Source: Chaetoderma sp. LZ-2023a
Lineage: Eukaryota > Mollusca > Caudofoveata > Chaetodermatida > Chaetodermatidae
Length of the DNA stretch: 64,000 nt
Direction: 5' to 3'
Assembly (NCBI GenBank): GCA_034401795.1
Contig: CM067366.1
Location: 81,690,891-81,754,890, forward strand
The translations under genes and the position numbers were made by a program. Of the stretch, positions 1 through 51,703 are shown piece by piece. Below the pieces are notes generated by a model that saw only the letters and a program-made list of their open reading frames with translations, searched no databases and was not told the origin of the DNA. Numbering within the stretch: position 1 is the stretch's first letter; every line of letters begins with the position of its first letter.

Positions 1-1
1 G

Positions 2-83
2 TGAACGTGTTACACTAATGGAGGCCGCGGTTCTAGGGCTAGCAATGAGTGCAATGGCTGAGATCATCGTCGCCTACGTTTAA
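2..83 (+). pseudogene. C-terminal tail of a membrane protein (copy A)
   Basis: This is the last part of an open frame entering from outside the window and ending at TAA 81-83. It encodes an Ala/Leu/Ile-rich hydrophobic helix that ends the protein, which looks like a tail anchor. The same C-terminus is encoded on the minus strand of copy B, ending at 46,284, so this is the homologue of the 46,284-46,686 gene. The function is unknown. Confidence 0.5.
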
Positions 84-102
84 AACCTCTGAATAGTGAG
101 AG

Positions 103-268
103 ATGGATCATGAGACCCCTGCAGCATATGAGACATGGCATGCCGGAGGGCCCGCAAGGCATGCCCCTGCAGAGAGGGCCAGTACCCTGAGCACTGCTAC
201 ATATTACCTTGGCCGACTGTGTGGTCCTCCTATGCCCAACTATTTCACTGGGGGTATGACTAGTAGGT
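103..268 (+). pseudogene. Small protein of the virus-like element, truncated (copy A)
   Basis: This is the homologue of the 74-residue frame at 46,040-46,264 in copy B; both start with a Met-Asp-(His/Asp)-Glu-Thr-Pro-Ala-Ala-Tyr-Glu sequence. In copy A the frame is shifted relative to copy B, and the gene runs into a deletion junction near 264-268 that fuses its end to the middle of the next gene. A TTTAAAACC motif lies about 15 bases before the ATG. I do not recognise the family. Confidence 0.45.
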
Positions 269-513
269 ATGCTCGGAGTCGATGAGGCTGGAACCGTCGA
301 GGTTATGGCTGAGTCCTTTGCACAGGACCTGGTTAAGGATCTCCTGAAACCATGGAGCTCATTCCGACAGGATGGAGAGAATCTCAAGATAGGCACCCTC
401 GGCCTGAGCCATATAACACTGTCGATGGCAAAAAAGGTGCTACCGCCAGCCTCCAGCTACCAGAGGTGAAGAAGTCGGGGTTCTTTGGTTTGCCGTTTAA
501 GACCACAGGATAG
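264..513 (+). pseudogene. C-terminal part of the 170-residue protein (copy A)
   Basis: This matches the second half of the copy-B frame at 45,510-46,019, beginning at its Met-Leu-Gly-Val-Asp-Glu-Ala segment. The first half, about 0.27 kb relative to copy B, is deleted, so translation starts at an internal Met (269). A small insertion near 415 shifts the frame before the end; copy B reads through that point. The frame that should end the protein stops at TAG 511-513. This is a broken gene in the conserved block just upstream of the ATPase. Confidence 0.5.
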
Positions 514-515
514 TC

Positions 516-786
516 ATGGCTTCCCGTGCATGTATCATACAGATACTGGATGTACTAGACACTGGGTGCTGACACAGGCCCTCTACGCTATCTTCTCAGC
601 TGCTGCTGGGATTTCATGCTTGACGCCTCCATCACATCCTTCATATCCGCCGGAGGTGCAGGATTCCCCGCTTTGCAGGCGAAAGAGCTGGTGCAAGAAG
701 TACTGCCCTTTAGTCTCCCAGATATAGACGAGGCTACCGCCGACCAAGTGCTAACCATCCTCCGCACACATGTCTGTGCCATTTGA
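516..786 (+). pseudogene. 93-residue protein homologue, frameshifted (copy A)
   Basis: The ATG at 516 follows a TTTAAG motif by about 15 bases. The start reads Met-Ala-Ser-Arg-Ala-Cys-Ile-Ile-Gln-Ile-Leu-Asp-Val-Leu-Asp, nearly the same as the frame at 45,223-45,504 in copy B. A one-base change around 562 breaks the frame; the rest of the match continues in another frame to a TGA that overlaps the ATPase start. The overlap suggests compact virus-like packing. No known domain is recognised. Confidence 0.5.
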
Positions 787-1405
787 TGGTAGGCCGGCCG
801 ATGCTGGCCAGGTGGTGCTGATCATTGCCCCGTCAGGACACGGGAAAAACATCTTGCTGTGGGCTCTCCTGGCCGAACATCTACACTCTCAATACATCCT
901 TCTGGTGTCTGACTCCGCCGCTGAGGCAGTTGACAGTAATGATCAATGGTACAATGGCCCAATCACCAAGACGCAGAACCTGCAAGCACTGATGAAGAAG
1001 CTGCTGGCAGCCCGACTGACAGAACCACTTGTTCTAGTTATCGATGACCCTGCAATGGACCAGAAGACAGTCACCTACCTCAGCAACATCACCAGGCGCA
1101 TCTGGCACACAAAGATAACTGTCTTCATCCTCTTTCAGAAGTACACCCGCGAAATCTCACCGGACATCCGCGACAATGCCCGGTTGCTATACTTCCGTTC
1201 CAAGTGTGGACATGCCCTGCTCGAGACCATATACAACAGCCTACCCCTCAAGGAGACCAAAGGGGACTTTATCGCAGGGTTACAGAGGGGAGCTGATCTG
1301 TACTGCTTCATCTTCAGCAACAAGGAGACAGGTGAGCTGTCACACTTCAAGCCATCTCTGGAAAAGGCGCAGGCCTTCACCTACAAGCTGAATCCAGCCA
1401 TTTAA
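770..1405 (+). CDS. A32-like (FtsK/HerA-type) DNA-packaging ATPase
   Basis: This is an intact 211-residue frame with the layout of the A32-like packaging ATPases of large eukaryotic DNA viruses, virophages and Polinton-like viruses, which power genome packaging into capsids. A P-loop lies at residues 20-27 (Ala-Pro-Ser-Gly-His-Gly-Lys-Asn) after a hydrophobic strand. A Walker B strand, Leu-Val-Leu-Val-Ile-Asp-Asp, lies at 87-93. A strand ending in Gln123 is followed by Ser-Pro-Asp-Ile-Arg-Asp-Asn (130-136), the Gln/Arg-Asn region typical of this family. The P-loop is unusual: Asn replaces the Ser/Thr after Lys26, and Ala replaces the first Gly; copy B has the same Asn. The start overlaps the preceding gene. 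It is the only clearly intact gene of copy A. The family assignment is by motif only. Confidence 0.82.
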   Translation: MSVPFDGRPADAGQVVLIIAPSGHGKNILLWALLAEHLHSQYILLVSDSAAEAVDSNDQWYNGPITKTQNLQALMKKLLAARLTEPLVLVIDDPAMDQKTVTYLSNITRRIWHTKITVFILFQKYTREISPDIRDNARLLYFRSKCGHALLETIYNSLPLKETKGDFIAGLQRGADLYCFIFSNKETGELSHFKPSLEKAQAFTYKLNPAI

Positions 1406-1546
1406 CTAGCCTGCTCTACGTGTCATCGCTGACAGCCTGTCGCAGCTGCCGCAACTTGTTTTTCATTCATCAGAAGGCTGTGGCTTACGATTAAACTTTC
1501 ACTGAAACTCTTTCCACTGAGGGTCCTTGTCTGGGACTCTCTTCAT
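1406..1546 (-). pseudogene. Tiny degenerate frame after the ATPase (copy A)
   Basis: A minus-strand frame of 47 codons starts at ATG 1546 and ends at TAG 1408-1406, convergent with the ATPase. It is interrupted by two in-frame stops and is Lys/Arg/Cys-rich. In copy B the same place is taken by the SAP-like gene, with the same terminal bases, so it may be the remnant of a counterpart. It could equally be chance. Confidence 0.22.
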
Positions 1547-1567
1547 CTGCTACTCCTCACAGAAGAC

Positions 1568-2248
1568 TCACTTTCCCCATGAGCTCCTAGCATCTGACTT
1601 GTTAGGGGATTTGATAAGGTAGTCCTGGTAGTTATTTTCTGTGAATACCAGAAATGCTGCCAGATCACTGGCCAATGTCCTGTGCCCTTTTTCGTTGAAG
1701 TTGTGCTCAACAGCCTCCTTGCGGCCAACAGTGACCCCATCCTGAGTACCTTCTGCATGACTGATGCCGTGGCTCTTCGCTACAGCGGCACTGACCTGCT
1801 TCGTGAGAGCGTTATTTTCTCCAGAATGGATTCTATCCAGTATCTCTCACTCTTCCTGGCTATGGAGTCTAAATACGTCAGCCCACTTCCCAACCGTTAG
1901 TAGATCTTTGGGTTCGACCCTCGCCCTTTGGAGAGCTAGAATAAAAGGACTGTTGGTTGGGGCCACGGGTCGGTTGGGTAGTACCTTGCCCTGGGTGCTG
2001 TCAAACTTCCGGTAGAGTATCCGAGTCAGAAGTTCTTTTGTATTACGAGCTGGCGCTCCTTCCTCTATGGTGGCCAGTATCTCCGCATCAGACGGAGGTG
2101 TGATCTTGGCTCGCTCGTGGATAATGTTGATGTCATGGAGCAGTCCTCGGACCCTGTCACAGTGGGACAGTGCACGCCGTGGCTATGACGGTCGTGCCGA
2201 CTTGTCCTGCTGCCTATAGACAATCTGCTGAAGAACGTTGCCAAACAT
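1568..2248 (-). pseudogene. Unknown 226-codon gene of the virus-like element
   Basis: One continuous minus-strand frame runs from ATG 2248 to TGA 1570-1568. It is interrupted by TAG at 2185-2183 and TGA at 1849-1847, and its composition is otherwise protein-like: charged, mixed alpha-helical, no membrane segment. The ATG lies about a dozen bases after a TTTTAAAC motif shared with the divergent gene at 2286. There is no counterpart in copy B. I do not recognise the family; position and direction suggest a real but dead gene of the element. Confidence 0.45.
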
Positions 2249-2253
2249 GGCAG

Positions 2254-2285
2254 CCGTTTAAAACCTCTATACCCAGACCTTAAAC
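2254..2285. promoter_or_regulatory. Shared TTTAAAC-type start motif between divergent genes
   Basis: The 37-bp gap between the minus gene (ATG 2248) and the plus gene (ATG 2286) contains GTTTAAAACC, reading toward the minus gene as TTTTAAAC, and CTTAAAC directly before ATG 2286. The same CTTAAACATG arrangement occurs at 46,821-46,830 in copy B. It is probably a virus-type promoter or initiator; this is inferred from recurrence. Confidence 0.4.
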
Positions 2286-3363
2286 ATGCTGCAGTATGTG
2301 CAACATCCAGATGGGACCATTGAACCCGCGACATCGCACCGCACTGATCCTCGGAAGGACTGCCTGACTGTCATTCGACCCAGTATACATGATGAGAACC
2401 CATTGTCCGCTGTTGTGAAGTACATTGACTTTGCAATCTCGGCACAGATCCACGAGATCAAGAGCATGACACTTGAGTTCAAGCTTCAGAACACAATAGA
2501 ACAGACGGTAGAGCTCCCGCAGGTTCTGAACAGGTGGGAGATCGTGCAGAGCAACAGCACCGTGGACACCACCTATGTGAACGATGAGTACCGAGTCCTA
2601 GGTCCGCTGGCTCATGGACCAACCTTCTATGCGAAGGGAAAGGGGTACTACGCTGTGGGGTGCAATGATGGGGTTCACGGAATTCAAACTACGGGCAGGT
2701 GTCGAGAAGCCCGTGGAAGTTCGACTCTTAACCCTCCTCAAGAACACACACGTGAATCTGGCTGCCATGCAGGATAGGCTGTTCCTCCGGGTGTACACTG
2801 AGCAGCTCACAGATGCGACGATGAATGCTCCAAGACTTCATGTCTAGCATGACGATAATGACCAGGAGCTGAAGCAAACGGGTTCCAAACAGCGGATCGT
2901 GCATGTGGAGCGAGAACACCAGCAGGTCCAAGCCACAGCTAACCAACGGGTAGAGCTGACATTGCATCGTGGTGCATTGGACTGTGTCGCTGTTGCGGTC
3001 CTGGTTCAGAAGGGAGGAGCCATCCAGCAGGTGGATAAGCTAGACGACTTTAAGCTTGTGGTAGCTGGGATCAATGTTCTTTGTGAGGCACGCGAGCTGG
3101 CTGATTGCCAACTCTACAGACAGAAAACTAAGTCATATGCACTTCTGCGACTAACCAGTGGAAGTGACGACCTCGTGTCGGCACTCAAGGGCCGTCACCA
3201 CCTCGGGGGCAGGGACATCCCACCTAATGAGGGCAACCGGCTCAGCTTCAGCATCGGAACCCTCATAGCTGGGACTCGCTCATTAGGTGTAACGGTACTT
3301 TACTTTGGCTATGCTAAAGTATGCGTGTCAAACACATCAAGTATTCAGCTTGAGCGTGCGTAG
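2286..3363 (+). pseudogene. Large beta-rich protein, candidate structural protein (copy A)
   Basis: The start is ATG 2286 directly after CTTAAAC. The coding signal runs about 360 codons to TAG 3361-3363, but is broken by a frameshift near 2665 and an in-frame TAG at 2845-2847. The parts alternate short Val/Leu-rich strands with polar loops and have no transmembrane helix or nuclease/polymerase motifs. This would fit a capsid or other virion protein of a virus-like element. That is a guess from size, composition and the neighbouring packaging ATPase; no capsid motif was identified. There is no homologue in copy B. It overlaps the end of the next, convergent frame by about 19 bases. Confidence 0.4.
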
Positions 3364-3584
3364 AGCACGACTCCTGTCGTCACAGCTGCAGCTGCCACCA
3401 CTACTATAAGCTCTGCTGTCTTCTGACCTGTCGATGCTTCATAGTCGAGCGTTGGCTCAGATATCTTTACAGCCTCGTAGTACTCATCGAGACTCTCATC
3501 TGCCTCTTTGATGCTCTGGTTGGCCTGAGCTCGGAGTTGTCGTCGGCATGCCACTCCCCCACCCCCTATTTGGGGTGTAGCCAA
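3345..3584 (-). CDS. Small C-terminally anchored membrane protein
   Basis: This 79-residue minus-strand frame has a polar, Glu-rich helix (about residues 25-55) followed by a hydrophobic segment (about 57-75: Glu-Leu-Ile-Val-Val-Val-Ala-Ala-Ala-Ala-Val) and a short basic end, the layout of a tail-anchored protein. It converges on and slightly overlaps the preceding gene, as is common in this element. The first residues are encoded by the G/C-rich sequence at 3550-3584 that looks like flanking repeat, so the true N-terminus was probably lost or replaced. Confidence 0.4.
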   Translation of the reverse strand: MATPQIGGGGVACRRQLRAQANQSIKEADESLDEYYEAVKISEPTLDYEASTGQKTAELIVVVAAAAVTTGVVLYARSS

Positions 3585-31899: not shown

Positions 31900-33710
31900 A
31901 CTGCGAAACTACGCCGAGCGTTGTCACAATCTGGCATTGATATCTGGATTCTACCTTCGACAATCGGTTCAATACGTTTTTCTCTGAGAAAATTGCTAAC
32001 ATCCGCAATAATCTTGACAATCAAAAGCCAGTAGTTATGGATGACAATGAGGCAATTAATCAACCGCCAATACTCGAAAGCTTTGCACTAGCTACTGAGT
32101 CCGAGATCACTAATCTCATTGTGTCATCCCCAAGCAAAACGTGTTCACTAGATCCTATACCAACATCAATAGTAAAGCAACATGTGCACATTCTTACACC
32201 AATAATCACTAACATCGTGAATATGTCTTTAACAGACGGTGTTTTCCCATCTATCATGAAGAGTGCCTTAGTTACGCCATTGCTGAAAAAATCTTCACTA
32301 GACCCTGAACAATTGAACAAGTACCGACCGATTTCGAATTTAACATTTCTGTCTAAGCTCGTTGAAAAGCTTGTGTCTACCAGAATAACTGTGCATATGC
32401 AACAGAATAAATTGTCCGAAAAATTCCAGTCCGCATATCGAGAGAACCACGGTACGGAAACTGCCTTGTTACGGGTCCAAAATGATATTCTGAGATCATT
32501 AGATAATCATAACGCAGTTTTTCTCGTATTATTAGATCTCTCAGCCGCGTTCGATACAATCGACCACGAGATACTATGTGAACGACTGAGGAATAACATC
32601 GGCATCAGCGGTACAGCCTTAGCCTGGATAAAATCATATCTTACGGACAGACATCAATCAGTGTGCATTGACAAATCATTAAGTTCCAGCATTCGGCTAA
32701 AGTATGGTGTCCCTCAAGGATCGGTCCTCGGTCCCAGATTCTTTACTGTTTACTCTGCTCCTATAGCAGATATAGTGCGGCGACATAACCTTCAGGTGCA
32801 TATGTACGCAGATGACACGCAGCTTTATCTAACATTTAAGCCTAACATACCTTGTCAGGAAACATCAGCTCTACAACAGGTCCGAACATGCGTCGCCGAT
32901 ATTAGCCGGTGGATGACCAAGAACAAGCTAAAACTCAATCCAGACAAGACTGAGTTCCTTATCATAGCGACAAATCAACAACGCAGCAAAATCGGCACTA
33001 CGGAAGTTCAGTTAGTTGACAGCGTGATCCCGGCAACTACATCCGCTAGGAACTTGGGCGTGTATCTAGACCAGGCTATGAATATGGATGCACATGTAAG
33101 CTCTGTGTGCAAATCTGCGACTTACCATTTGCGTAACATTAATTCCATCAGAAATGTGCTGACATATCAGACCACAGAGACACTTGTTCACGCGTTTATC
33201 ACATCACGATTGGACAATGGAAACAGTCTCTTATATGGCATCACCGAAAAATCCCTTGATAAACTGCAATATGTGCAAAATGCTGCGGCTCGTCTGGTAG
33301 TCAAGGTCGAAAAGCGTCATCACATAACACCAATTTTGAAAGATCTTCATTGGCTCCCCATCCGGAAACGGATTGAGTTCAAGATTCTGCTCTTGACTTG
33401 GAAATGTCTAAACAACAACGCTCCCGACTATTTGCAGGAACTTCTCTTGACATATGATCCATGTCGCAGACTTCGTTCTGTGGATAAGCTATTGCTCCAA
33501 ATTCCGCGATCGAATTTACGCTCCTGTGGGGACAGAGCCTTCAGTGTTGTGGCTCCGAGACTATGGAACCAGCTACCTGTCCACATCAAATCCATCCAAT
33601 CAATTAATGATTTCAAACAAAAATTAAAAACACATCTCTTCACAAGCGCCTTTGAAAATTGACATTGACACATGGCGCTTTACAAATGCTGTATTATTAT
33701 TATTATTATT
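31900..33710 (+). mobile_element. 5'-truncated L2/CR1-type LINE with intact RT frame
   Basis: The RT and C-terminal region (32,037-33,662) are uninterrupted; the same frame extends upstream to about 31,955. The 3' end GGCGCTTTACAAATGCTGTA followed by (TTA)n at 33,691-33,710 is the usual tail of L2-like LINEs. No endonuclease domain is present, so the copy is 5'-truncated, as most LINE insertions are. Confidence 0.85.
32037..33662 (+). CDS. Reverse transcriptase of a non-LTR retrotransposon
   Basis: A 541-codon frame without interruption. RT motifs appear in order: Tyr-Arg-Pro-Ile-Ser-Asn-Leu; Leu-Leu-Asp-Leu-Ser-Ala-Ala-Phe-Asp-Thr-Ile (motif A); Gly-Val-Pro-Gly/Gln-type Tyr-Gly-Val-Pro-Gln-Gly-Ser-Val-Leu-Gly-Pro (motif B region); His-Met-Tyr-Ala-Asp-Asp-Thr-Gln-Leu (catalytic YADD, motif C); Asn-Leu-Gly-Val-Tyr-Leu-Asp. 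The C-terminus has the His-Trp-Leu-Pro-Ile-Arg-Lys-Arg-Ile and Arg-Ala-Phe-Ser-Val-Val-Ala-Pro-Arg-Leu-Trp-Asn motifs typical of L2/CR1-type proteins. It copies element RNA at a nicked target. The Met at 32,037 is the first in frame, but the true protein began further upstream and is truncated, so this copy is not autonomous. Confidence 0.9.
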   Translation: MDDNEAINQPPILESFALATESEITNLIVSSPSKTCSLDPIPTSIVKQHVHILTPIITNIVNMSLTDGVFPSIMKSALVTPLLKKSSLDPEQLNKYRPISNLTFLSKLVEKLVSTRITVHMQQNKLSEKFQSAYRENHGTETALLRVQNDILRSLDNHNAVFLVLLDLSAAFDTIDHEILCERLRNNIGISGTALAWIKSYLTDRHQSVCIDKSLSSSIRLKYGVPQGSVLGPRFFTVYSAPIADIVRRHNLQVHMYADDTQLYLTFKPNIPCQETSALQQVRTCVADISRWMTKNKLKLNPDKTEFLIIATNQQRSKIGTTEVQLVDSVIPATTSARNLGVYLDQAMNMDAHVSSVCKSATYHLRNINSIRNVLTYQTTETLVHAFITSRLDNGNSLLYGITEKSLDKLQYVQNAAARLVVKVEKRHHITPILKDLHWLPIRKRIEFKILLLTWKCLNNNAPDYLQELLLTYDPCRRLRSVDKLLLQIPRSNLRSCGDRAFSVVAPRLWNQLPVHIKSIQSINDFKQKLKTHLFTSAFEN

Positions 33711-42233: not shown

Positions 42234-43007
42234 TTAATACCGGGTATATCCACCTTGTGCCTGGATGACGGCCTGGACACGACGTCTCATGCTGGTCACC
42301 AACCGACTGATACGCCATTGTGGTATTCGTTGGCATTCAAGATGGAGTGCGTCTGTTAATTCCTGTAGGTTCTGCACAGGAGGATCCCCCCTTCTCACCA
42401 TGTTTCCCAGAATGTCCCAGATATGCTCAATAGGGTTCATGTCAGGGCTCCTTGCTGGCCATGGTAGGGTTTCGATGGCATTCTGGCGGAGGTATTCATG
42501 CACAGCTCTAGCACGATGTGGTCGGGCGTTGTCATCCATGAATATAGGGTGGGTTCCAGGTGCATGATTTACGAAATCAGGGACCACAACTCTATCCAGT
42601 ATGGAATCTTGATATCTTTGTCCATTTAGTGTTCCAGGTACAGTCAACAGATCCAGCTTACAATCAAATGAGATGCACCCCCATATCATAACGGAACCTC
42701 CACCAAATGGAACTTCTTCCATGATGTTACGTTGGTCGTACGCCATGCGTCTGGACCTCCATACACGAGTTCGACCATCTGTGGCATGAAGCAGGAACCG
42801 ACTTTCATCGGACCAGTGTACCCGTCTCCAGGATCTCATGTTCCAGTGTCTTCTTTCGTTGCACCACCTCAGACGCTCCTCTTTGTGGTGTGCAGTGAGG
42901 AGAGGACGTCTGACAGGTCTCCTAGCTTTCATGCCAGCAGCATACAGTCTCCTTTTGACGGTAGACATTGACACTCTATTGCGCGTTTCCCATTGCTGGC
43001 TGAGCAC
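42234..43007 (-). pseudogene. Tc1-like transposase, catalytic part (frameshifted gene)
   Basis: A 257-codon frame holding the DDE triad of Tc1/mariner enzymes: His-Trp-Ser-Asp-Glu-Ser-Arg-Phe (first Asp), Phe-Met-Asp-Asp-Asn-Ala-Arg-Pro-His (second Asp) and Ser-Pro-Asp-Met-Asn-Pro-Ile-Glu-His-Ile-Trp-Asp (Glu, 34 residues after the second Asp: DD34E). It catalyses cut-and-paste transposition into TA. The DNA-binding N-terminus lies in another frame upstream (43,046-43,258), so one frameshift near 43,065 separates the two. The copy is probably inactive. Confidence 0.9.
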
Positions 43008-43045
43008 TCTGCTGTTGGTGAATGGAGATCTCCTAACAAGGCGTA

Positions 43046-43258
43046 CTAGGGCTCGATCATCACGGCAGTAGTCTTCTTCGGTCTTCCAGATCTAGGCCTG
43101 TCCTTCACCTCGTTAGTTTGCCCATGTTTTGCAATCAAACGACTGATTACAGTATGGTTAATGTTCAGCTGTCTGCCAATCTCTCTGCAGGACATACCAG
43201 TGGTATGCATGCCTATGATTTGCCATTTCACACGATCACTTAACCTTCGTCTTGCCAT
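43046..43258 (-). pseudogene. Tc1-like transposase, N-terminal helix-turn-helix part
   Basis: A 70-codon frame with Gly-Met-Ser-Cys-Arg-Glu-Ile-Gly-Arg-Gln-Leu-Asn-Ile-Asn (HTH of the paired-like domain) and the Gly-Arg-Pro-Lys-Lys (GRPR-like) motif before the second domain. Out of frame with the catalytic part. Confidence 0.85.
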
Positions 43259-43575
43259 AGCGGTTCACAATCGAGAGCTAATTCTCTCTGTACAAATAAA
43301 CCACGGTCATGAACACAAAATTCCTAATCTTGTCGCCTAAATCTGTATGTAATGTTCTACACCTCAAACTGGACTTTTACATAACTGAACACGTGTGCTG
43401 TTTCCCGCCACGCGCGGACATCAAGTGGCGTGAAGTCATGCATGCATGTGCATTTCGTACTTGGAATTATGTCAGCTAACGCGGGGACAAAAAGTATGGC
43501 AGCCTAGTTGTACCATCATGTTTCCACGTTCTATTGTTTTTGCTGGTGCTTAACTTTTGCACAGGTGTATATATA

Positions 43576-44005
43576 CGGAGTCAAAATGATACCACCTCAA
43601 AATGATGCCGCCGTAGACCGACAATCGCTGCCGCGTAGACCGACAATCGCCGATTATTAATCTACGCAGCGGGCCACCGCCGTAGACCGACAATCGCCGA
43701 TTATTAATCTACGTCTGAGTCAAAATGATACCACCTCAAAATAGATATGGGGTAGATATGGGGCAAAAGTTATCTACATCGCGGCCCGTACTGGTAGAAA
43801 TGTTTTCGAACAAATCTACGTCGTGGCCCTCTACACATGGCAGGCCCCTACTGGGCGCCGATCGGCGATCCGTAGCCCCCACAGCTATCTCAAGCCCTGT
43901 GGCCACCAATCGGCGATCCGAAGCCCCCATAGCTATCTACGTCCCAGTAGAAAGGTTTTCGAGCAAAAAGTTATCTACGTCACCGGCCGTTCGGGTAGAC
44001 GCAGA
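43576..44005 (+). repeat. Left terminal inverted repeat of copy B
   Basis: Contains internal direct repeats: GTAGACCGACAATCGC three times, CGATTATTAATCTACG twice, the terminal GAGTCAAAATGATACCACCT again at 43,717, and AAAAGTTATCTAC at 43,764 and 43,965. It pairs with 51,168-51,595. Confidence 0.75.
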
Positions 44006-44029
44006 ATTTGATCTCATTCCCGTGGCTGC

Positions 44030-44403
44030 GAATGGTGTGAATTTCCATTTAGGGATAAGCAACCACAGTGATATACAAGCTGATCGCCTTGGTCTGAACG
44101 TCCATTTAGAGACAAGCATACTCAGCGGTATACGAGCTGATCAAGCACACATTACAGGGTCTGAACGTCCATTTAGAGACAAGCATACTCAGTGGTATAC
44201 GAGCTGATCAAGCACACATAAAAGGTCTGAACGTCCATTTAGAGACTAGCATACTCAGTGGTATACGAGCTGATCAAGCACGCATTACAGGGTCTGAACG
44301 TCCATTTAGAGACAAGCATACTCAGTGGTATAGCTTGTGATCAAGCACGCATTACAGGGTCTGAATGTCCATTTAGAGACAAGAATACTCAGTGGTATAT
44401 ATA
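44030..44403 (+). repeat. 67-bp tandem repeats between TIR and the SAP-like gene
   Basis: GGTCTGAACGTCCATTTAGA starts at 44,091, 44,158, 44,224, 44,291 and 44,358, with a diverged unit before. Each unit has CTCAGTGGTATA and TGATCAAGCAC. The last unit ends in GGTATATATACC, directly before the gene at 44,408. They could serve as promoter elements or an origin. Confidence 0.85.
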
Positions 44404-44407
44404 CCCC

Positions 44408-44599
44408 ATGATAACTGTTGCACAGCTTCGCGCTATGGCAAGGCAATTCGGCCTTAGAGGCTACTCTAAGGCCAAGAAAGCCGACCTGCTCCAGATGATC
44501 GGACAGGCCCGTGCCGAGGAATTCATTGCACAACTAAGACGATCAGTGAAGACGGGATGGTTTCTAGCGACCACCAGAGATTATCCTGAGAACGCGTAG
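44408..44599 (+). CDS. SAP/Rho-N-like small DNA-binding protein
   Basis: A 63-residue frame starting Met-Ile-Thr-Val-Ala-Gln-Leu-Arg-Ala-Met-Ala, then Gly-Leu-Arg-Gly-Tyr-Ser-Lys-Ala-Lys-Lys-Ala-Asp-Leu-Leu, the two-helix pattern of SAP or Rho N-terminal domains, which bind nucleic acid. The C-terminus is short and basic. The start at 44,408 is chosen because the upstream open frame is tandem-repeat sequence. It converges on the ATPase; its stop codon marks the exact point where copies A and B stop matching. Such small SAP-type proteins are common in DNA viruses. The function here is inferred. Confidence 0.6.
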   Translation: MITVAQLRAMARQFGLRGYSKAKKADLLQMIGQARAEEFIAQLRRSVKTGWFLATTRDYPENA

Positions 44600-45245
44600 A
44601 GCAGGCTAGTTTCCTGACTGGATTCAGCTTGTAGGTGAAGGTCTGCGCCTTTTCCAGAGAGGGCTTGATGTATGACAGCTCACCTGTCTCCTTGTTGCTG
44701 AAGATGAAGCGGTACAGCTCAGCTGCCCTCTGTACACCTGCGATAATGTACCCTTTGGGCTCCTTGAGGGTTAGGCTGTCGTATATGGTCTCGAGCAGGG
44801 CACATCCACACTTGGAGCTGAATTATAGCAACCGGGCATTGTGGCGGATGTCTGGGGAGATCTCGCGGGTGTACTTTTGAAAGAGGATGAAGACAGTTAT
44901 CTTTGTGTGCCGGATGCACCTGGTGATGTTGCTGAGGTAGGTGACTGTCTTCTGGTCCATTGCAGGGTCATCGATAACTAGAACAAGGGGTTCTCTCAGT
45001 CGGGCTGCCAGCAGCTTCTCCATCAAGGCTTGCAGGTTCTGCGTCTTGGTGATTGGACCATTGTACCATTGATCATTACTGTCAACCGCCTCAGCGGCGG
45101 AGTCAGACACCAGAAGGATGTATTGAGAGTGTAGATGTTCGGCCAGGAGAGCCCGCAGCAAGATGTTTTTCCCGTGGCCTGACTGGGCAATGATCAGCAC
45201 CACCTGGCCAGCATCGGCCGGCCTACTGTCGAATGGTACAGACAT
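44600..45245 (-). pseudogene. A32-like packaging ATPase, interrupted (copy B)
   Basis: The start is ATG 45,245. The frame keeps the P-loop (Gln-Ser-Gly-His-Gly-Lys-Asn), Walker B (Leu-Val-Leu-Val-Ile-Asp-Asp) and Gln ... Ser-Pro-Asp-Ile-Arg-His-Asn, but stops at TAA 44,825-44,823, where copy A has a Tyr codon. Similarity to copy A continues in the same frame to the end of the gene; the original stop codon has also changed (TAA to AAA). It is therefore a copy inactivated by at least one nonsense change. The start overlaps the upstream 93-residue frame as in copy A. Role as described for 770-1405. Confidence 0.8.
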
Positions 45246-45504
45246 GCGCGGGGAGGATGATCAGCACTTGGTCGGCGGTAGCCTCGTCTATATCTGGGAG
45301 ACTAAACGGCAGTACTTCCTGCACCAGCTTTTGTGCCTGCTGTGTGGGTAGCGTTGTACCTCCGGCGGATACGAAGGATGTGATGGAGGCATAAAGAAGC
45401 ATGAAATCCCAGCAGCAGCTGAGAAGATAGCGTAGAGGGCCTGTGTCAGCACCCACAGTGTCTAGTACATCCAGTATCTGTACGATACATGCACGGGAAG
45501 TCAT
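45223..45504 (-). CDS. 93-residue protein upstream of the ATPase
   Basis: Met-Thr-Ser-Arg-Ala-Cys-Ile-Val-Gln-Ile-Leu-Asp-Val-Leu start; helical, with a hydrophobic middle (about residues 24-45, Leu/Trp/Phe/Met-rich) that may be a membrane helix, and an Asp/Glu-rich C-terminus. Ends inside the ATPase start. Conserved with copy A (there frameshifted), so it is a real gene of the element. The family is not recognised; the tight coupling to the ATPase suggests a packaging or virion role. Confidence 0.55.
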   Translation of the reverse strand: MTSRACIVQILDVLDTVGADTGPLRYLLSCCWDFMLLYASITSFVSAGGTTLPTQQAQKLVQEVLPFSLPDIDEATADQVLIILPAHVCTIRQ

Positions 45505-45509
45505 GACTA

Positions 45510-46019
45510 TTATGTGGGCTTAAACGGCAAATCAAAGAACCCCGACTTCTTCACCTCTGGTAGCTGGAGGCTGGTGGTAGCACCTTTTTTGCCATCGACA
45601 GTGATATTGCTCAGGCGGAGGGTGCCTATCTTGAGATTCTCTCCATCCTGTCGGAATGAGCTCCGTGGTTTCAGGAGATCCTTAACCAGGTCCTGTGCAA
45701 AGGACTCAGCCATAACCTTGATGGCACCAGCCTCGTCGACTCCGAGCATACCTCGCATCGTTGCCCTGTCTTTGACATCCATCCCCTTGTATACAGTCTT
45801 GGCCTTGTTAATGGCCGATCGTCCTACTGTATCAGTGTTCCCGACGAGATCTCGGGCTGGGATGGTACCTCGGATCTCCCGCAGGTCTCCCTTCTCATCG
45901 AAGTCTAGGAAGGAGATAGGGGCAACAGTGTTCTCTGAACCTAGGCGTGCCTCGCCCAAGTGAGCAAGATCGCCTAGCTCTTTGCTTTCTAGGTCTGTGA
46001 GTGACAGAGTCATAGTCAT
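45510..46019 (-). CDS. About 169-residue conserved protein
   Basis: An open frame on the minus strand. I prefer the Met at 46,019 (Met-Thr-Met-Thr-Leu-Ser-Leu-Thr-Asp-Leu-Glu), which follows GGTTTAAGCC by about 10 bases; an upstream GTG-initiated extension to 46,040 is less likely. Charged, with Asp-Val-Lys-Asp-Arg-Ala-Thr-Met-Arg-Gly and a Lys/Leu-rich helix near 110-130; no membrane segment. Its second half is preserved in copy A. Unknown family, possibly a structural protein. The gap to the next gene is 5 bases. Confidence 0.55.
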   Translation of the reverse strand: MTMTLSLTDLESKELGDLAHLGEARLGSENTVAPISFLDFDEKGDLREIRGTIPARDLVGNTDTVGRSAINKAKTVYKGMDVKDRATMRGMLGVDEAGAIKVMAESFAQDLVKDLLKPRSSFRQDGENLKIGTLRLSNITVDGKKGATTSLQLPEVKKSGFFDLPFKPT

Positions 46020-46039
46020 ATACAGATGGCTTAAACCCA

Positions 46040-46264
46040 CTAGTCATACCCCCAGTGAAGTAGTTGGGCATAGGAGGACCACGCAGTCGGCCAAGGGAAT
46101 AGGTAGCAGTGCTCAGGGTACTTGCCCTTTCTGCAGGGGCACGCCTTGTGGGCGGTCCACCATTCCTGGGCATTGGCAATCCTCAGGCCGCGTTCTTGAC
46201 TATGGGCTACACACTGCCCTCTGGCATGCCATGCCTCATATGCTGCAGGGGTCTCGTCATCCAT
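46040..46264 (-). CDS. 74-residue Cys-containing protein
   Basis: Trp/His/Tyr-rich with Ala-Cys-Pro-Cys-Arg-Lys-Gly-Lys-Tyr-Pro-Glu-His-Cys in the middle, a possible small metal site. The frame differs from that of the copy-A homologue, so one of the two is shifted. The start sequence (Met-Asp-Asp-Glu-Thr-Pro-Ala-Ala-Tyr-Glu) is shared. Function unknown. Confidence 0.4.
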   Translation of the reverse strand: MDDETPAAYEAWHARGQCVAHSQERGLRIANAQEWWTAHKACPCRKGKYPEHCYLFPWPTAWSSYAQLLHWGYD

Positions 46265-46283
46265 CTCTCACTATTCAGAGTGG

Positions 46284-46686
46284 CTAAACATAGGCGACGA
46301 TGATCTCAGCCATTAAACTCGTTGCTAGCCCTAGAACCGCGGCCTCCATTAGTGTAACACGTTCACCCATGATCTTCGCAGTGGCAGTGTAGGCGGCACC
46401 ACTGAGGGCGATCTTTGGGATGGGGGTGAGTTATTCCGAGACAGTGGCCGGCCACCCCACTCACCACGGTAGCAAGGACAGCCGCAGTGGTGGCAGGAAG
46501 AACCTCATTTCCCCCTGTCATCTTCGCCACGGCCACATTCGCCGCCACATTACTGGCGACATGGACTGCCAGAGGCTTAGCCTGTGTCAGTAACTTCTGT
46601 GTCTTGGTTCGCAGCAGGTTCTCCACCTTCTGAGGACTCGCCTGGCTCTCGGGAAGTTGCTTCACGATCTGTACCGTTGGCGTCAT
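46284..46686 (-). pseudogene. Membrane protein with Gly/Ala-rich segment and tail anchor, frameshifted
   Basis: The start is ATG 46,686, 1-2 bases after GCTTAAACA. The N-terminal half is basic and polar, then comes an Ala/Val-rich segment (about residues 42-80). A frameshift near 46,430 separates this from the conserved hydrophobic C-terminus, which ends at TAG 46,286-46,284 and matches the first bases of copy A. It overlaps the upstream gene (46,577-46,804). It is probably a virion membrane protein; that is inferred only from hydrophobicity. Confidence 0.5.
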
Positions 46687-46804
46687 TGTTTAAGCCCTGA
46701 GTATACAATGCAGTTAAACGCCTGTGTTCCCTGTCGAGGGAGCTAATAAGATTTTCCCAGTCTGCATCTGCTAGGTGTCCGGGTTGGTACTCAGGAATAT
46801 TCAT
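46577..46804 (-). CDS. Small acidic hydrophilic protein
   Basis: A 75-residue frame: helical N-terminus (Asp-Trp-Glu-Asn-Leu-Ile-Ser-Ser-Leu-Asp-Arg-Glu-His-Arg-Arg-Leu) and a disordered Glu/Ser/Gly-rich tail. It overlaps the next gene by about 110 bases in another frame. It shares a 23-bp divergent start region with the gene at 46,828. Unknown function. Confidence 0.4.
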   Translation of the reverse strand: MNIPEYQPGHLADADWENLISSLDREHRRLTALYTQGLNNDANGTDREATSREPGESSEGGEPAANQDTEVTDTG

Positions 46805-46827
46805 CTCTCTATTGAGACATCTTAAAC
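46805..46827. promoter_or_regulatory. Divergent start region with TTTAAG/CTTAAAC
   Basis: The 23 bases between two divergent ATGs hold CTTAAAC immediately before ATG 46,828, which reads GTTTAAG toward the minus-strand gene. Same arrangement as at 2254-2285 in copy A. Confidence 0.45.
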
Positions 46828-47325
46828 ATGTCCGGGCTCACGCTATGCGCGAAGTACTATGAGGTCTTCCGGAGGGAGCTGAAGGTCTACAAGAAGAAGA
46901 CGCCAGATGAGCTGGCTCAGCTCTCCGGTGCTGAGCTGACAGAGGAGCTGACAGCTGTGAAGCTCTATCTAGGATTTGGTAAGGGGCAGATCTGCTTCCT
47001 TGAATACCTTATCATGGGCGGGAGTATCGTCGAGCAGCTCCTGCAAGCTAAAGGTTTCTACAAGGATTGGGAGTATCTGTCAGATGTGTTCCAGCAGTTG
47101 CAGACTTCCATGGCCTCACGTGACTCAGAGCTGAACAAGGCTCTGCGATACTACAAGCTGGAAAAAGGATGCGCTGCGGAGCCCTCCATCCCTTGGATGT
47201 GCATGTTGGTAGCGTGTATAGGGGCTGTAGGGCAGGCCAAGCTGGCTCAGTGTCTCACCGTGGTCCCCACCGCTACTGACGAGAGTCAGGATAGTCTTTT
47301 AGCTGATTTGCTAGCAGCGGGGTAG
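46828..47325 (+). CDS. 165-residue helical protein with C-terminal hydrophobic segment
   Basis: The N-terminal two-thirds is helical and charged (Leu-Lys-Val-Tyr-Lys-Lys-Lys-Thr-Pro-Asp-Glu-Leu). There is a hydrophobic stretch near residues 122-142 (Pro-Trp-Met-Cys-Met-Leu-Val-Ala-Cys-Ile-Gly-Ala-Val-Gly), then a short tail. One intact frame preceded by CTTAAAC. Its last 15 bases overlap the convergent gene at 47,311. No family recognised. Confidence 0.55.
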   Translation: MSGLTLCAKYYEVFRRELKVYKKKTPDELAQLSGAELTEELTAVKLYLGFGKGQICFLEYLIMGGSIVEQLLQAKGFYKDWEYLSDVFQQLQTSMASRDSELNKALRYYKLEKGCAAEPSIPWMCMLVACIGAVGQAKLAQCLTVVPTATDESQDSLLADLLAAG

Positions 47326-48504
47326 GCTGATCCCGAGCACCACGATAGTAAGGCCTGACACCACTCGTAGAGCTGCCACGGGAAGCGGTGTCGTGTCGAC
47401 TGGCTGCAGTGGCGGGGTCGGAATGACTGTATGGCCCGTACTACGTGTAGGTGTGTTGATATCCATGTTGAAACCGAAGTGGACACCGGGAGAACTCCCC
47501 TCGACTATCATGTTGTTATAGCCCCTGACTTGGAGGTCAAGTTTGCGACGGGCCTTCTGCAAACCCTGCTGGAACTTAGCAATAAGATTGCTGGGATCTG
47601 CCACGATGATCATATCCTCAACGAGACTTATGAACATGACCTGGACCTCTGCTCCGCTGACACCATCTATGGAATGACGCAGCTTGGTCTGTGCTGTAAG
47701 GAGGCAGTAGCACAGTGCTTCCAGGGACTGGTTGATCCGAACGATCCCTGCTGGTGTGAGGCCTGAGGTGGTGTGTGGGACAAAGTACTTCCACACATCT
47801 GGATAGTCCTGACTGATTCCGGTGATGTGCATATTTTGCACTATCGCTCCAGGATCGGAGTCTGGATCGAACGAGAATGTCACTGTCTTCCGATGGCCTA
47901 CTCGTCGGGGTGTTCGATAGGTGAATCCTGAGTAGTCATGTCTCGGGTCATCGTACATAACCCCTAGACCGCTGTCGTCGCCGCCATGCCACCGATAGTC
48001 TGGGTGAGCTCTGAACTCTCTCTGTAGTCTGCTGGCCGCTGAGACGCTATGACTGTTGAGCTGTGGGTCGAAGTCGTTTGTATCAGGGAGGCTTGCACCC
48101 AGCTCATGGAGGATTCGTCGCATAGTGAAGTACACGTGGAATCTGAGACAGCTGGCGATGAGCACAGCTTCAGGAGTACCAGAATAGGAGTGAAGCAGGG
48201 TGGAACTTACTCCACAGCCTGCCGTGGCACACCACACGGCAAAGTTCAGCTGCCGATTCCAGTATGAGAGGCTTGGAGCAGCCATCCAAGTATGAGCTTG
48301 CTTTGCATCCTTGATGGTGATGGGGCGGTTCGTCAGCGGTCGTGGGTTGATGGAGAAGCTGGTTCGGGCCCGTCGATCCACTGTGATAGAGAATGGTACT
48401 AGCTCTGGTATATCATCCAGTAGGCCTCTCAGGTCAGTCAAGGGTGTACCCAGGAGGGGCGGATGGCTCCGGATGACTGTCGTGAGGTTCAGTGGGAAGG
48501 CCAT
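47311..48504 (-). CDS. 397-residue protein with C-terminal anchor, longest gene of copy B
   Basis: An intact frame. The first about 350 residues are soluble and mixed alpha/beta, with Asp-Tyr-Arg-Trp-His-Gly-Gly-Asp-Asp-Ser-Gly-Leu-Gly-Val-Met-Tyr near 170-185 and a His-Asp-Tyr-Ser-Gly-Phe block. A Pro-rich linker (about 362-372) leads to a hydrophobic C-terminal helix (Val-Val-Ser-Gly-Leu-Thr-Ile-Val-Val-Leu-Gly-Ile), so it looks anchored by its tail. GCTTTAAGAACACC lies about 20 bases upstream of the ATG. It is a candidate spike, receptor-binding or other virion surface protein by architecture only. I do not recognise the family. There is no homologue in copy A, which does not cover this region. 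Confidence 0.55.
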   Translation of the reverse strand: MAFPLNLTTVIRSHPPLLGTPLTDLRGLLDDIPELVPFSITVDRRARTSFSINPRPLTNRPITIKDAKQAHTWMAAPSLSYWNRQLNFAVWCATAGCGVSSTLLHSYSGTPEAVLIASCLRFHVYFTMRRILHELGASLPDTNDFDPQLNSHSVSAASRLQREFRAHPDYRWHGGDDSGLGVMYDDPRHDYSGFTYRTPRRVGHRKTVTFSFDPDSDPGAIVQNMHITGISQDYPDVWKYFVPHTTSGLTPAGIVRINQSLEALCYCLLTAQTKLRHSIDGVSGAEVQVMFISLVEDMIIVADPSNLIAKFQQGLQKARRKLDLQVRGYNNMIVEGSSPGVHFGFNMDINTPTRSTGHTVIPTPPLQPVDTTPLPVAALRVVSGLTIVVLGISLPRC

Positions 48505-48543
48505 CTATACTGGTGTTCTTAAAGCTACCGTATAGGCAGCACA

Positions 48544-49170
48544 TTATTTGTAGTCGTCTCGACTCCAGAGACCGGCGAGGTGACCTCGCCGTAACATCTC
48601 CTTTTTTAACTCCTCCATGTCAACCCGCCCGCTGGAGCCTTTGACGTATTGCTGTCGCACTTTAGGTTTCTCAGTGTGGTACAGGGCTTGGACCTTCAAT
48701 ATATGGTGGTACTCTTCATCAGTGACCTGGCCATCCTCGAGAGCTTTGCTGACAGACTCGTCGATAGTCCGTAGCATACTCTGTGCTAGTGTCACGTACT
48801 TAGCATGCTTCTCCAACCTCCTTGTGATCTGCCACTACCCCACCCGCAAGCCCGTGACCAAGACAGTGGCGGCTAGTGCCACGCCACCCAGCGGAATGGC
48901 GACGAGGGCACCCACCCCTGTAGCGAGAGTGGCCACAGCTGCCACACCAGCAAAGGCTCCAATCACACCCACAGCAGTGGTTGTACGCGCGAGGATGTTG
49001 TAGGCTGTCTTATATCGACTGCGCGTTCAGCCATACTTTTCTGCCTCATGGACGAGATTCTGCCTGATGCTATATATCTTCTGGAGTCACCAGCCGTGGA
49101 TGGTACCTCCCTCGTCAGCAGTCAGGGAGGGGTATAGTTCTGGTTGCTTCCGCCACTCTGACTTTGCCAT
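48544..49170 (-). pseudogene. Membrane protein gene with three in-frame stops
   Basis: One reading frame of 208 codons runs from ATG 49,170 to 48,544. It is interrupted by TGA 49,089-49,087, TGA 49,029-49,027 and TAG 48,837-48,835. Between the second and third stop lies a long Gly/Ala/Val-rich hydrophobic stretch (about 50 residues, two possible membrane helices). The last 90 codons are a helical domain with Asp-Gly-Gln-Val-Thr-Asp-Glu-Glu-Tyr, similar to an EF-hand-like turn but without a full calcium loop. TTTAATCCC precedes the ATG. The preserved frame shows a single gene decaying by point mutations. Confidence 0.6.
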
Positions 49171-49184
49171 AGTATACCTAGGGA

Positions 49185-49784
49185 TTAAACCTGCATCACC
49201 TGCATCACCTGCATCACCTGCTTATGAGTCATAGATGGGTTCATTGTGGAGAGCCTGGCTAACTGTGCCAGCTTCTTGGTCTTGAGACAGCTGTCTCTTA
49301 GAACGTGGTCATCCAGCACTATGTCGGGTGCCAGTAGCGTTCTGAGCCGTGACATCTGGAACTTCACCTTATCACCAAGATAGTAGGTCCACCGCTGGAT
49401 GGCTTTCTTGATCTTATACTTCCGTGCCATCTCCTCTTCCCACTGTATGACCTCTGGCTCATCCTCGTCTGAGAACACACCTGGCTCATCGTCGTATGTG
49501 AAGACATCTGGCCAATCGTCGTCTGTCAAGACTCCTGCATCCCGCTTACTCTCCTCCAGGAGGGCCTGCCAGTATCGGAAATTTTCCCTGTCCCTCCTTG
49601 CCCTGCGCGCATTCTGTTGATACCAGTTCTCCCACTGTAAGCGCTCTCCTTCTTGCTGACAGATCTGTTGCTGTGCGGGCATCTGTTCGTTTAAGACCTT
49701 TATCTGTGCAGGGGTTATGAAGGGGCAATCCTCTATCGGCTTCATCATCTCGGCCAAGGCCAGATATTGCTGGTATGATATCAT
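49185..49784 (-). CDS. 199-residue acidic coiled-coil-like protein
   Basis: Gln/Glu/Arg-rich helices at residues 40-75, then a run of Asp/Glu-rich repeats (Asp-Asp-Asp-Trp-Pro-Asp-Val-Phe-Thr-Tyr-Asp-Asp-Glu-Pro-Gly-Val-Phe, about 86-115), a basic region, and a C-terminus made of three Val-Met-Gln triplets from a 9-bp DNA repeat. No membrane segment. Probably intact, though the repeat-encoded end may be recent. Unknown family; could be a scaffold or nucleoprotein. Confidence 0.5.
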   Translation of the reverse strand: MISYQQYLALAEMMKPIEDCPFITPAQIKVLNEQMPAQQQICQQEGERLQWENWYQQNARRARRDRENFRYWQALLEESKRDAGVLTDDDWPDVFTYDDEPGVFSDEDEPEVIQWEEEMARKYKIKKAIQRWTYYLGDKVKFQMSRLRTLLAPDIVLDDHVLRDSCLKTKKLAQLARLSTMNPSMTHKQVMQVMQVMQV

Positions 49785-49877
49785 GTTGTCATCAGGTCAA
49801 TGAGTAATAAGAGTGTAAACTCTAAATGGGCGTCCGATATCCCATCCATGCTGGCATATATGTTAATGGAGGGGCTG

Positions 49878-50159
49878 TCAAACGGGTGATTTACAGGTGT
49901 GAACAGGACTGATAGCTTTCCATAGGTTGCTGTTGGCACCTGGGAGATACTCTATCACGTCCCGGCCGACTTCTACCAGTGAGCTGCTGTGTGCACTGCC
50001 CAGAGGTTGATGTAGCTCATCGGCGTGTATGTATGTGGTGCCCCGCTGGGGCACCTCGACGAGGAACCATTCTACATGGTACTGTACCACCCGTCTCCCC
50101 TCTAGAGAGGGTGAGATTATGTTCTCACCACCGGAGAGCAGCAGTCGGACAATCGGCAT
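49878..50159 (-). CDS. About 93-residue small protein
   Basis: Met-Pro-Ile-Val-Arg-Leu-Leu-Leu-Ser-Gly-Gly-Glu-Asn at 50,159 is the preferred start; an upstream Met at 50,174 would lie across the TTTAAA motif. Beta-rich, with Val-Glu-Trp-Phe-Leu-Val-Glu-Val-Pro-Gln-Arg-Gly-Thr-Thr-Tyr. Divergent from the next gene, sharing TTTAAAC at 50,171-50,178. Unknown function. Confidence 0.45.
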   Translation of the reverse strand: MPIVRLLLSGGENIISPSLEGRRVVQYHVEWFLVEVPQRGTTYIHADELHQPLGSAHSSSLVEVGRDVIEYLPGANSNLWKAISPVHTCKSPV

Positions 50160-50165
50160 GGTTAT

Positions 50166-51141
50166 ATGTCTCATTTAAACCCATCCTATAAGCGTGCTAT
50201 GGAACCCATATTTGCTCACTTGACTGGTCTTGCTGACCTCGCAGATGTGTACGCAGTTGATGCTGCCAAGGTAGAAGAGAGTGATGGCAAGTCATTCGCC
50301 CTACAGTACGAAGCAAGCTCAAAGACATTCTCCCTCCACAGACCTCAAGGATGTGTCGAAAGGGCGTCTGGGCGGCAACATAGATGGCCACAAGATCGTG
50401 TTTCGGTATGATTTCCCGAAGAAGAAGTACATCCTCGAGCCGTTGATTGAGGTCTCGGATACAGAGGTGGCAGAAATCAACACCCTTAATGACGACCTCA
50501 GCTTTCATCTGGTCAAACCCTATTCGAGCAATGCCCCGCCGATGACACATGAGGGTCTGCTATTGACCCTGGCAAACCTGCAGTTCATGTTTGAGAAGAA
50601 TGAAGTGTGGTACCGCGCTGGACCTGGGGGTAACTGGCAAACATGGTTGCCCCTATATAGACCTCCCGCAGTCATTGACATAGAGGTTACTCCCCTCTCC
50701 ACTGTTGTGAAAAGGGATGGGAAAGTTCGAAAGCTCTACAATCGGGGATCATCCTTCCTCACCTACATAGGTGAAGGTTTCTCCCTAACGAGGGTGGGTC
50801 CCCGGATCGGGGTTACAGGTGGAAAGCTCCTGCTGCTTCGTCCATTGGACGGCCCAGAAGAAGCTGGTAACCTCCAGGAGGGCATCCTACGGGTAGATGG
50901 GGTGTCACATGCCACCAAAGCCAAGGGTGCTGTTAAACTGCTTCAGCGAGTGGGACTCACTAGCCCACAAACGACTCATATAGTCCAAGAGCTACGTTCC
51001 TTAGCCGGCGGCAAAGTGAAGCAGCTAGCCCCTGCCCCTGAGGGGATGAAGATCACTATCGAACCGGATGGAGCAGGGCTCGATCTGGCACAGATATTTC
51101 TCGAGGCGTTCACTCTGTTCAGCTTAACTCTTCATGTATAG
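50166..51141 (+). pseudogene. About 325-codon gene, frameshifted
   Basis: Begins at ATG 50,166 (Met-Ser-His-Leu-Asn-Pro-Ser-Tyr-Lys-Arg). A single frameshift near 50,340 divides the frames 50,166-50,411 and 50,281-51,141. The second part has a globular, soluble composition: Tyr-Asp-Phe-Pro-Lys-Lys-Lys-Tyr-Ile-Leu-Glu-Pro, Arg-Ala-Gly-Pro-Gly-Gly-Asn-Trp-Gln-Thr-Trp, and a basic helical end. It is the gene nearest the right TIR. No recognisable enzyme motif. It could be a replication or DNA-binding protein or a virion protein; undecided. Confidence 0.5.
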
Positions 51142-51167
51142 TCAAGATGCCTTCTTGTATATAAAGC

Positions 51168-51595
51168 TTGGCGTAGCTGGCAAAAAGTTATCTACCAGAA
51201 CGCGGCGCGATGTAGATGGTAAAAAGTTATCTACCGGAATGAGCCACGATAAATAATTGGGGCAAAAGTTATCTACCGGGACGCGCAACGACGTAGATAG
51301 CTGTGGGGATCAGCTGCCCCAGGGCTTGAGATAGCTGTGGGAGCCACGGATCGTCGATCGGCTGCCCCAGGGTCTGCCTTGCGTAGAGAGGGCCGATAAC
51401 ATTTTGATCGATAACATTTCTACCGGGACGGGTCGCGACGTAGATAACTTTTTGTTCGAAACATTTCTACCAGGACTGGCCGCGACTTAGATAACTTTTG
51501 CCCCTACGCCGAGCCTTACGTCGCCACGTAGATTAATAATCGGCGATTGTCAGTCTCCGGCGGCATCATTTTGAGGTGGTATCATTTTGACTCCG
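51168..51595 (-). repeat. Right terminal inverted repeat of copy B
   Basis: Carries AAAAAGTTATCTACC-type boxes at 51,183, 51,222 and 51,265 in one direction, and GATAACTTTTTG / GATAACTTTTGCC at 51,435 and 51,490 in the other. Ends in TGATACCACCTCAAAATGAT (complement). Matches the left TIR with several internal rearrangements. Confidence 0.75.
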
Positions 51596-51596
51596 G

Positions 51597-51703
51597 ATTA
51601 GTTTCAAAATATTCAACAGACTGTTTATTAAATGGTAAAGACATACAACGTGTCAGACTATTAAGCGCTAAGGACAGACTATTTCGAATCATTTATGACG
51701 TCA
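51597..51703. repeat. Right arm of the interrupted palindromic repeat
   Basis: ATTAGTTTCAAAATATTCAA followed by a tract matching the complement of 21,897-21,985. This is the missing partner of 41,715-41,907. Confidence 0.65.

Follow-up and report, generated by a model that had tools for sequence, protein, structure and literature searches.

The stretch of DNA analysed here (the window, 64,000 nucleotides of the genome of the mollusc Chaetoderma sp. LZ-2023a, C8:81690891-81754890 in the host assembly) includes an element of about 8 kb, located at 43573-51598, which carries complex inverted repeats at both ends and a set of compact genes. The original prediction, made from the letters of the sequence, described it as an integrated virus-like element with a packaging ATPase and with neither a polymerase nor an integrase, which could be a deletion derivative, a satellite-like element or a member of a new family. 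From a search of the host assembly (2.44 Gb, 2753 contigs) we conclude that this element is almost certainly an internally deleted and decayed copy of an ordinary Polinton/Maverick family of the host genome.

The predicted size and the inverted ends were borne out. The best pair of arms (43573-43628 and 51543-51598) is 56 nucleotides (nt) long and 95% complementary; a second pair (43857-43903/51316-51362) shows 91% complementarity over 47 nt and a third (43765-43847/51370-51452) 77% over 83 nt, and further pairs exist. Since the same ends recur around the sibling copies described below, they are not due to chance. The GC content is approximately 0.48-0.54 within the element, versus about 0.40 to its right. 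The right flank, 51597-51648, corresponds to a host repeat, and one of the siblings (L014) is inserted in another copy of this repeat, within a few bases of the position of the right-end joint in the window. Directly to the left of the element, on the minus strand, a Tc1-type transposase is encoded at 42234-43091 (HTH_Tnp_Tc3_2, E 1.6e-17; DDE_3, E 4.1e-11).

A nucleotide search of the host assembly, which the original prediction had proposed as the way to find fuller copies, scored the window copy and 20 other places (21 among 10020 first-look candidates, the copy counts being lower bounds). The siblings are 88-95% identical to the window element in their main stretches, with one 0.56-kb piece at 82%. 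The copies on C1423 and C569 are identical across the 9054 bases compared and may represent one copy assembled twice; therefore, at most 19 of the 20 places are known to be distinct. The 10 kb leftward were examined for 19 siblings (all but C1423): in ten of them (L012-L015, L018, L019, L021, L023, L025 and L026), 7.4-8.2 kb separate the left part of the window element from its right part, and in five (L010, L011, L017, L024 and L027) the distance is 3.7-6.0 kb. Measured from tip to tip, two siblings on C2 are 16,279 bp (the copy of L013) and 15,565 bp (the copy of L012) long. In the nine siblings with both ends the left tip reads AGTAGTATATCC, and the right tip is identical to it or one change away. 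Polintons generate target duplications of 5-6 bp, and a duplication of 5 bp was found for all nine end pairs, at seven different sites, three pairs sharing CTAGG. Some siblings at different places also share their flanks, on the left L017, L018 and L019 (84-91%) and on the right L028, L036, L037 and L038 (93-97%). CTAGG is the duplication common to the three shared-flank copies with both ends, and it is likely that a larger repeat unit was multiplied and these siblings with it.

The middle of the siblings encodes the functions that are missing from the window copy. A frame of 594 amino acids (aa) of L013 matches DNA_pol_B_2, the type B DNA polymerase (PolB) family of organellar and viral type (PF03175, E 6.5e-13), and a piece of L012 matches the same family at E 0.017, below the cut-off; the motif YxxxDTDS is present in 10 of the 19 sibling stretches, on the opposite strand in L020. 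A frame of L012 matches the rve integrase core above the cut-off (PF00665, E 1.8e-8); the same frame gave E 0.022 with a solved integrase structure, and NCBIfam places it near the IS481 transposases (2.7e-13, far below the cut-off of that model). Close to PolB and integrase the siblings have a frame of ~500 aa which, by its position and look only, is a capsid candidate: none of 7526 candidates was a homologue at E<=0.01, and its best match in PDB, to unrelated proteins, reached E 0.7.

The joint in the window copy is located where ten of the 19 siblings have this additional DNA, as the deletion derivative option of the original prediction would have it. Relative to L013, 8181 bp are missing at 44592/44593, and the only match that crosses 44592 is that of the window itself, no sibling match doing so. 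The sibling frames for PolB, integrase, the capsid candidate and a neighbouring 184-aa protein were compared by tblastn with positions 43500-51700, and no match was found at E<=1e-3; thus the absence of PolB, integrase and capsid candidate from the window copy is real, and the original observation on the two enzymes holds. A 33-nt pattern spanning the junction occurs once in the 2.44 Gb when up to three mismatches are allowed (reversed control, 0), and with a 201-bp cross-junction query the window itself accounts for the one row, among 41, that spans the joint (40 of 2560 candidates scored). The single occurrence of the pattern gives no sign of a short family that propagates, and as far as tested the short form is private to the window locus.

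The features of the window copy are collected in Table 1. A Pfam scan took in 20 window frames, and Rho_N, the second domain that had been recognised originally, was the sole match above its cut-off. This frame corresponds to residues 2-109 of a 376-aa frame of L013 situated ahead of PolB and on its strand, which suggests that the Rho_N "gene" marks the beginning of the polymerase gene region that was deleted. The ATPase had been assigned to the A32/FtsK-HerA type. Its longest open piece (44823-45245) matches AAA_33 (2.7e-4) and several other P-loop families below threshold, as well as a PHROG of terminase large subunits (5.5e-5); NCBIfam gave just weak ABC-type matches. Pox_A32 (5.1e-4) scored 20.0 bits where the cut-off is 22.8, and for this reason the A32/packaging label is only plausible. 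The gene proposed at 50,166-51,141 is split over two frames instead of forming a single one, and no Pfam match above the cut-off was obtained for it. Its DNA is present in both siblings that supplied the PolB/integrase frames for the scan (C2:51.98-52.00M and C2:23.54-23.56M), and matching frames are found in L004, L005 and L007. The frame at 50281-51141 (+) has one outside homologue, P0121, with 65% identity, on a 6.7-kb contig of JGI source, which may stem from this Polinton lineage in a different sample. For the 132-aa penton candidate no PDB match was found at E<=10. In all, the ATPase, ~134-aa, ~222-aa, ~132-aa and ~300-aa genes are broken in the window copy.

Table 1. Features of the element at 43573-51598 and of the related fragment at the left edge of the window
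Feature	Position	Strand	Remarks
Second Polinton fragment, same family	1..3552	-	Opposite orientation to the window element; reaches the window edge
Left terminal inverted repeat with sub-repeats	43573..43999	+	Tip of ~10-12 nt, which reads AGTAGTATATCC in siblings, changed or missing
67-bp tandem repeat, 4.6 copies, within left end	44091..44399	+	Also in siblings
Rho_N reading frame	44258..44599	+	Pfam E 2.4e-7, above cut-off; truncated by the deletion
Deletion junction	44592..44593		Sides overlap by 2 nt (AC); 10/19 siblings have 7.4-8.2 kb at this point
Packaging-type ATPase gene (candidate)	44619..45257	-	One frame, one premature internal stop
176-aa open reading frame, function not assigned	45510..46040	-	Matching frames in siblings
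Gene for ~134-aa protein	46287..46689	-	Split over two frames in window copy
165-aa open reading frame, function not assigned	46828..47325	+	Also in siblings
397-aa protein, predicted mostly helical	47311..48504	-	Without 60 bp that siblings have
Gene for ~222-aa protein	48547..49188	-	One frame, three internal stops in window copy
199-203-aa open reading frame, function not assigned	49185..49796	-	Open reading frame
Gene for ~132-aa protein (a penton candidate, judged just by eye)	49784..50174	-	Split over two frames
Gene for ~300-aa protein	50193..51141	+	In two frames, one at 50193-50339 and the other starting at 50338
Right terminal inverted repeat	51185..51598	-	Outermost nucleotides lost

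These results can be arranged in a simple history. Full-length copies probably relied on their own type B polymerase for replication and on their own rve integrase for insertion, which would have left the target duplication of 5 bp; the genes and the duplications are observed, and the activities would follow from them. The window copy would then have lost about 8 kb, from the start of the polymerase region to the end of the ATPase gene, and with this stretch PolB, the integrase and the capsid candidate; the 2 nt common to both sides of the joint are what simple end-joining would leave. Stops, frameshifts, a 60-bp deletion and the damage to both outer tips would have been added to this loss, and today the copy would be without a working mechanism of its own. 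The element is a fossil, neither a satellite nor a new family.

Several observations weigh against this view or concern further hallmarks of Polintons. No target duplication was seen around the window copy, whose tips are altered on both sides; given these two facts, which fit age or rearrangement, this copy shows no sign of having been inserted by an integrase. The left end was not found within 10 kb in three of the 19 siblings (L009, L016 and L020), and in another one (L022) the left part is present with merely ~67-80% identity. In L013, two frames of the integrase region are without a Pfam match. Regarding the virion proteins, the structure model of the ~500-aa frame, the candidate for a double jelly-roll major capsid protein, has a predicted local distance difference test (pLDDT) score of 28.7, which makes it useless; no Pfam match to an adenovirus-type cysteine protease was found among the frames scanned, many of them broken; and the ATPase family match is below the Pfam cut-off in the window piece as well as in a 216-aa relative described below.

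Because the tips are altered and the target duplication is missing, a chimera remains a live sub-hypothesis, in which the left end and the right half come from two different Polintons brought together through ectopic recombination or rearrangement; the host repeat on the right flank, which is also found beside other copies, would suit such an event. However, the order and the spacing of the parts fit a single loss of ~8.2 kb (8181 bp versus L013) from an element of 16.3 kb, and the two sides of the joint share only 2 nt, hence we regard a chimeric origin as unlikely. A non-autonomous, satellite-like short element spread by the enzymes of full Polintons was among the options of the original prediction, and the inverted ends, retained along with part of the gene set, speak for it, as do the shorter middles (3.7-6.0 kb) of five of the 19 siblings. 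A form of this kind should not be represented by a junction that occurs once in the genome, with one of 41 match rows spanning the joint, nor by a copy with damaged tips, no target duplication and broken genes, and this option is very improbable. Virophages and transpovirons are small DNA elements dependent on another virus; in contrast, nothing here points to a helper, polymerase and integrase both being encoded by the siblings themselves.

The remaining proposal was a new family of elements with an unrecognised replication protein, encoded by the 50,166-51,141 gene. The lack of PolB in the window copy, together with the lack of a Pfam match above the cut-off for this gene, agrees with it; nevertheless, PolB and integrase are carried by siblings that have the same ends, the same right half and the same gene, and the new family retains next to no credibility. 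For the same reason the proposal that the element is of a type apart does not survive, the full-length copies being Polintons with PolB and integrase. The reading that is left in place is that of an internally deleted copy of this Polinton family.

According to PMC4028283, Polintons have a length of 15-20 kb, and the siblings resemble Polintons/Mavericks in size (15.6-16.3 kb), inverted ends, type B polymerase and rve integrase, in the candidate FtsK/A32-like ATPase and in several small genes without assigned function. In contrast, the window copy has 8 kb and is devoid of polymerase, integrase and capsid candidate. The family also shares PolB, the rve integrase and the packaging-type ATPase (candidate) with the adintoviruses or "meldviruses" of animals, as these are presented in a preprint (PMC11071296); it differs from them in that the Rho_N frame precedes the polymerase. 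In the definition of this preprint, adintoviruses have a PolB whose N-terminus is OTU-like, a hexon that can be recognised and a chromodomain in the integrase; the preprint also mentions genomes that have virion proteins of the adenovirus class without recognisable PolB and integrase. No match to the OTU-like N-terminus, the hexon or the chromodomain was found in the 10 sibling frames scanned, which are fragmentary.

The second fragment of the family within the window (1-3552) consists of pieces 79-93% identical to the siblings, mostly 87-93%. It has pieces of the capsid candidate that the element at 43573-51598 lost, and an uninterrupted ATPase frame of 216 aa (755-1405, +; Pox_A32, 0.055), for which PDB gave weak matches only, the best one (E 0.093) to an ABC transporter ATPase. 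Elsewhere in the window, a 573-aa frame at 31941-33662 (+) contains a reverse transcriptase domain (RVT_1, E 3.1e-32) and is probably a retrotransposon remnant.

The 397-aa protein encoded in the window copy has 390 homologues at E<=1. The 120 homologues listed are 375-667 aa long, and no Pfam domain was found in any of them; one cluster comprises 686 members. The 60 bp missing from the window gene (20 codons, in frame) are present in the three siblings measured (L006, L007 and L008). In an alignment of the window protein with 34 of the 120 listed homologues, the residues LNFA and CAT..CG are invariant; by eye, the family shows invariant cysteines and a hydrophobic C-terminal tail. The structure model is largely helical (pLDDT 68.5), and a fold search with it gave no convincing match. 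Among the viral contigs of IMG/VR, pattern matches were obtained in three stretches with the protein and in 25 with its alignment, none of which was confirmed. It is conceivable, as a tentative suggestion that we would not favour, that Polintons have in this family a conserved component of the membrane or the virion, with a fold not yet described.

What looked like a novel virus-like element lacking both polymerase and integrase is thus explained as the decay product of a Polinton family, and searching the assembly of the host itself settles cases of this kind. One candidate for a new type of element can be dropped; the deletion derivative itself brings nothing new, and the family of the 397-aa protein is the one lead worth keeping.

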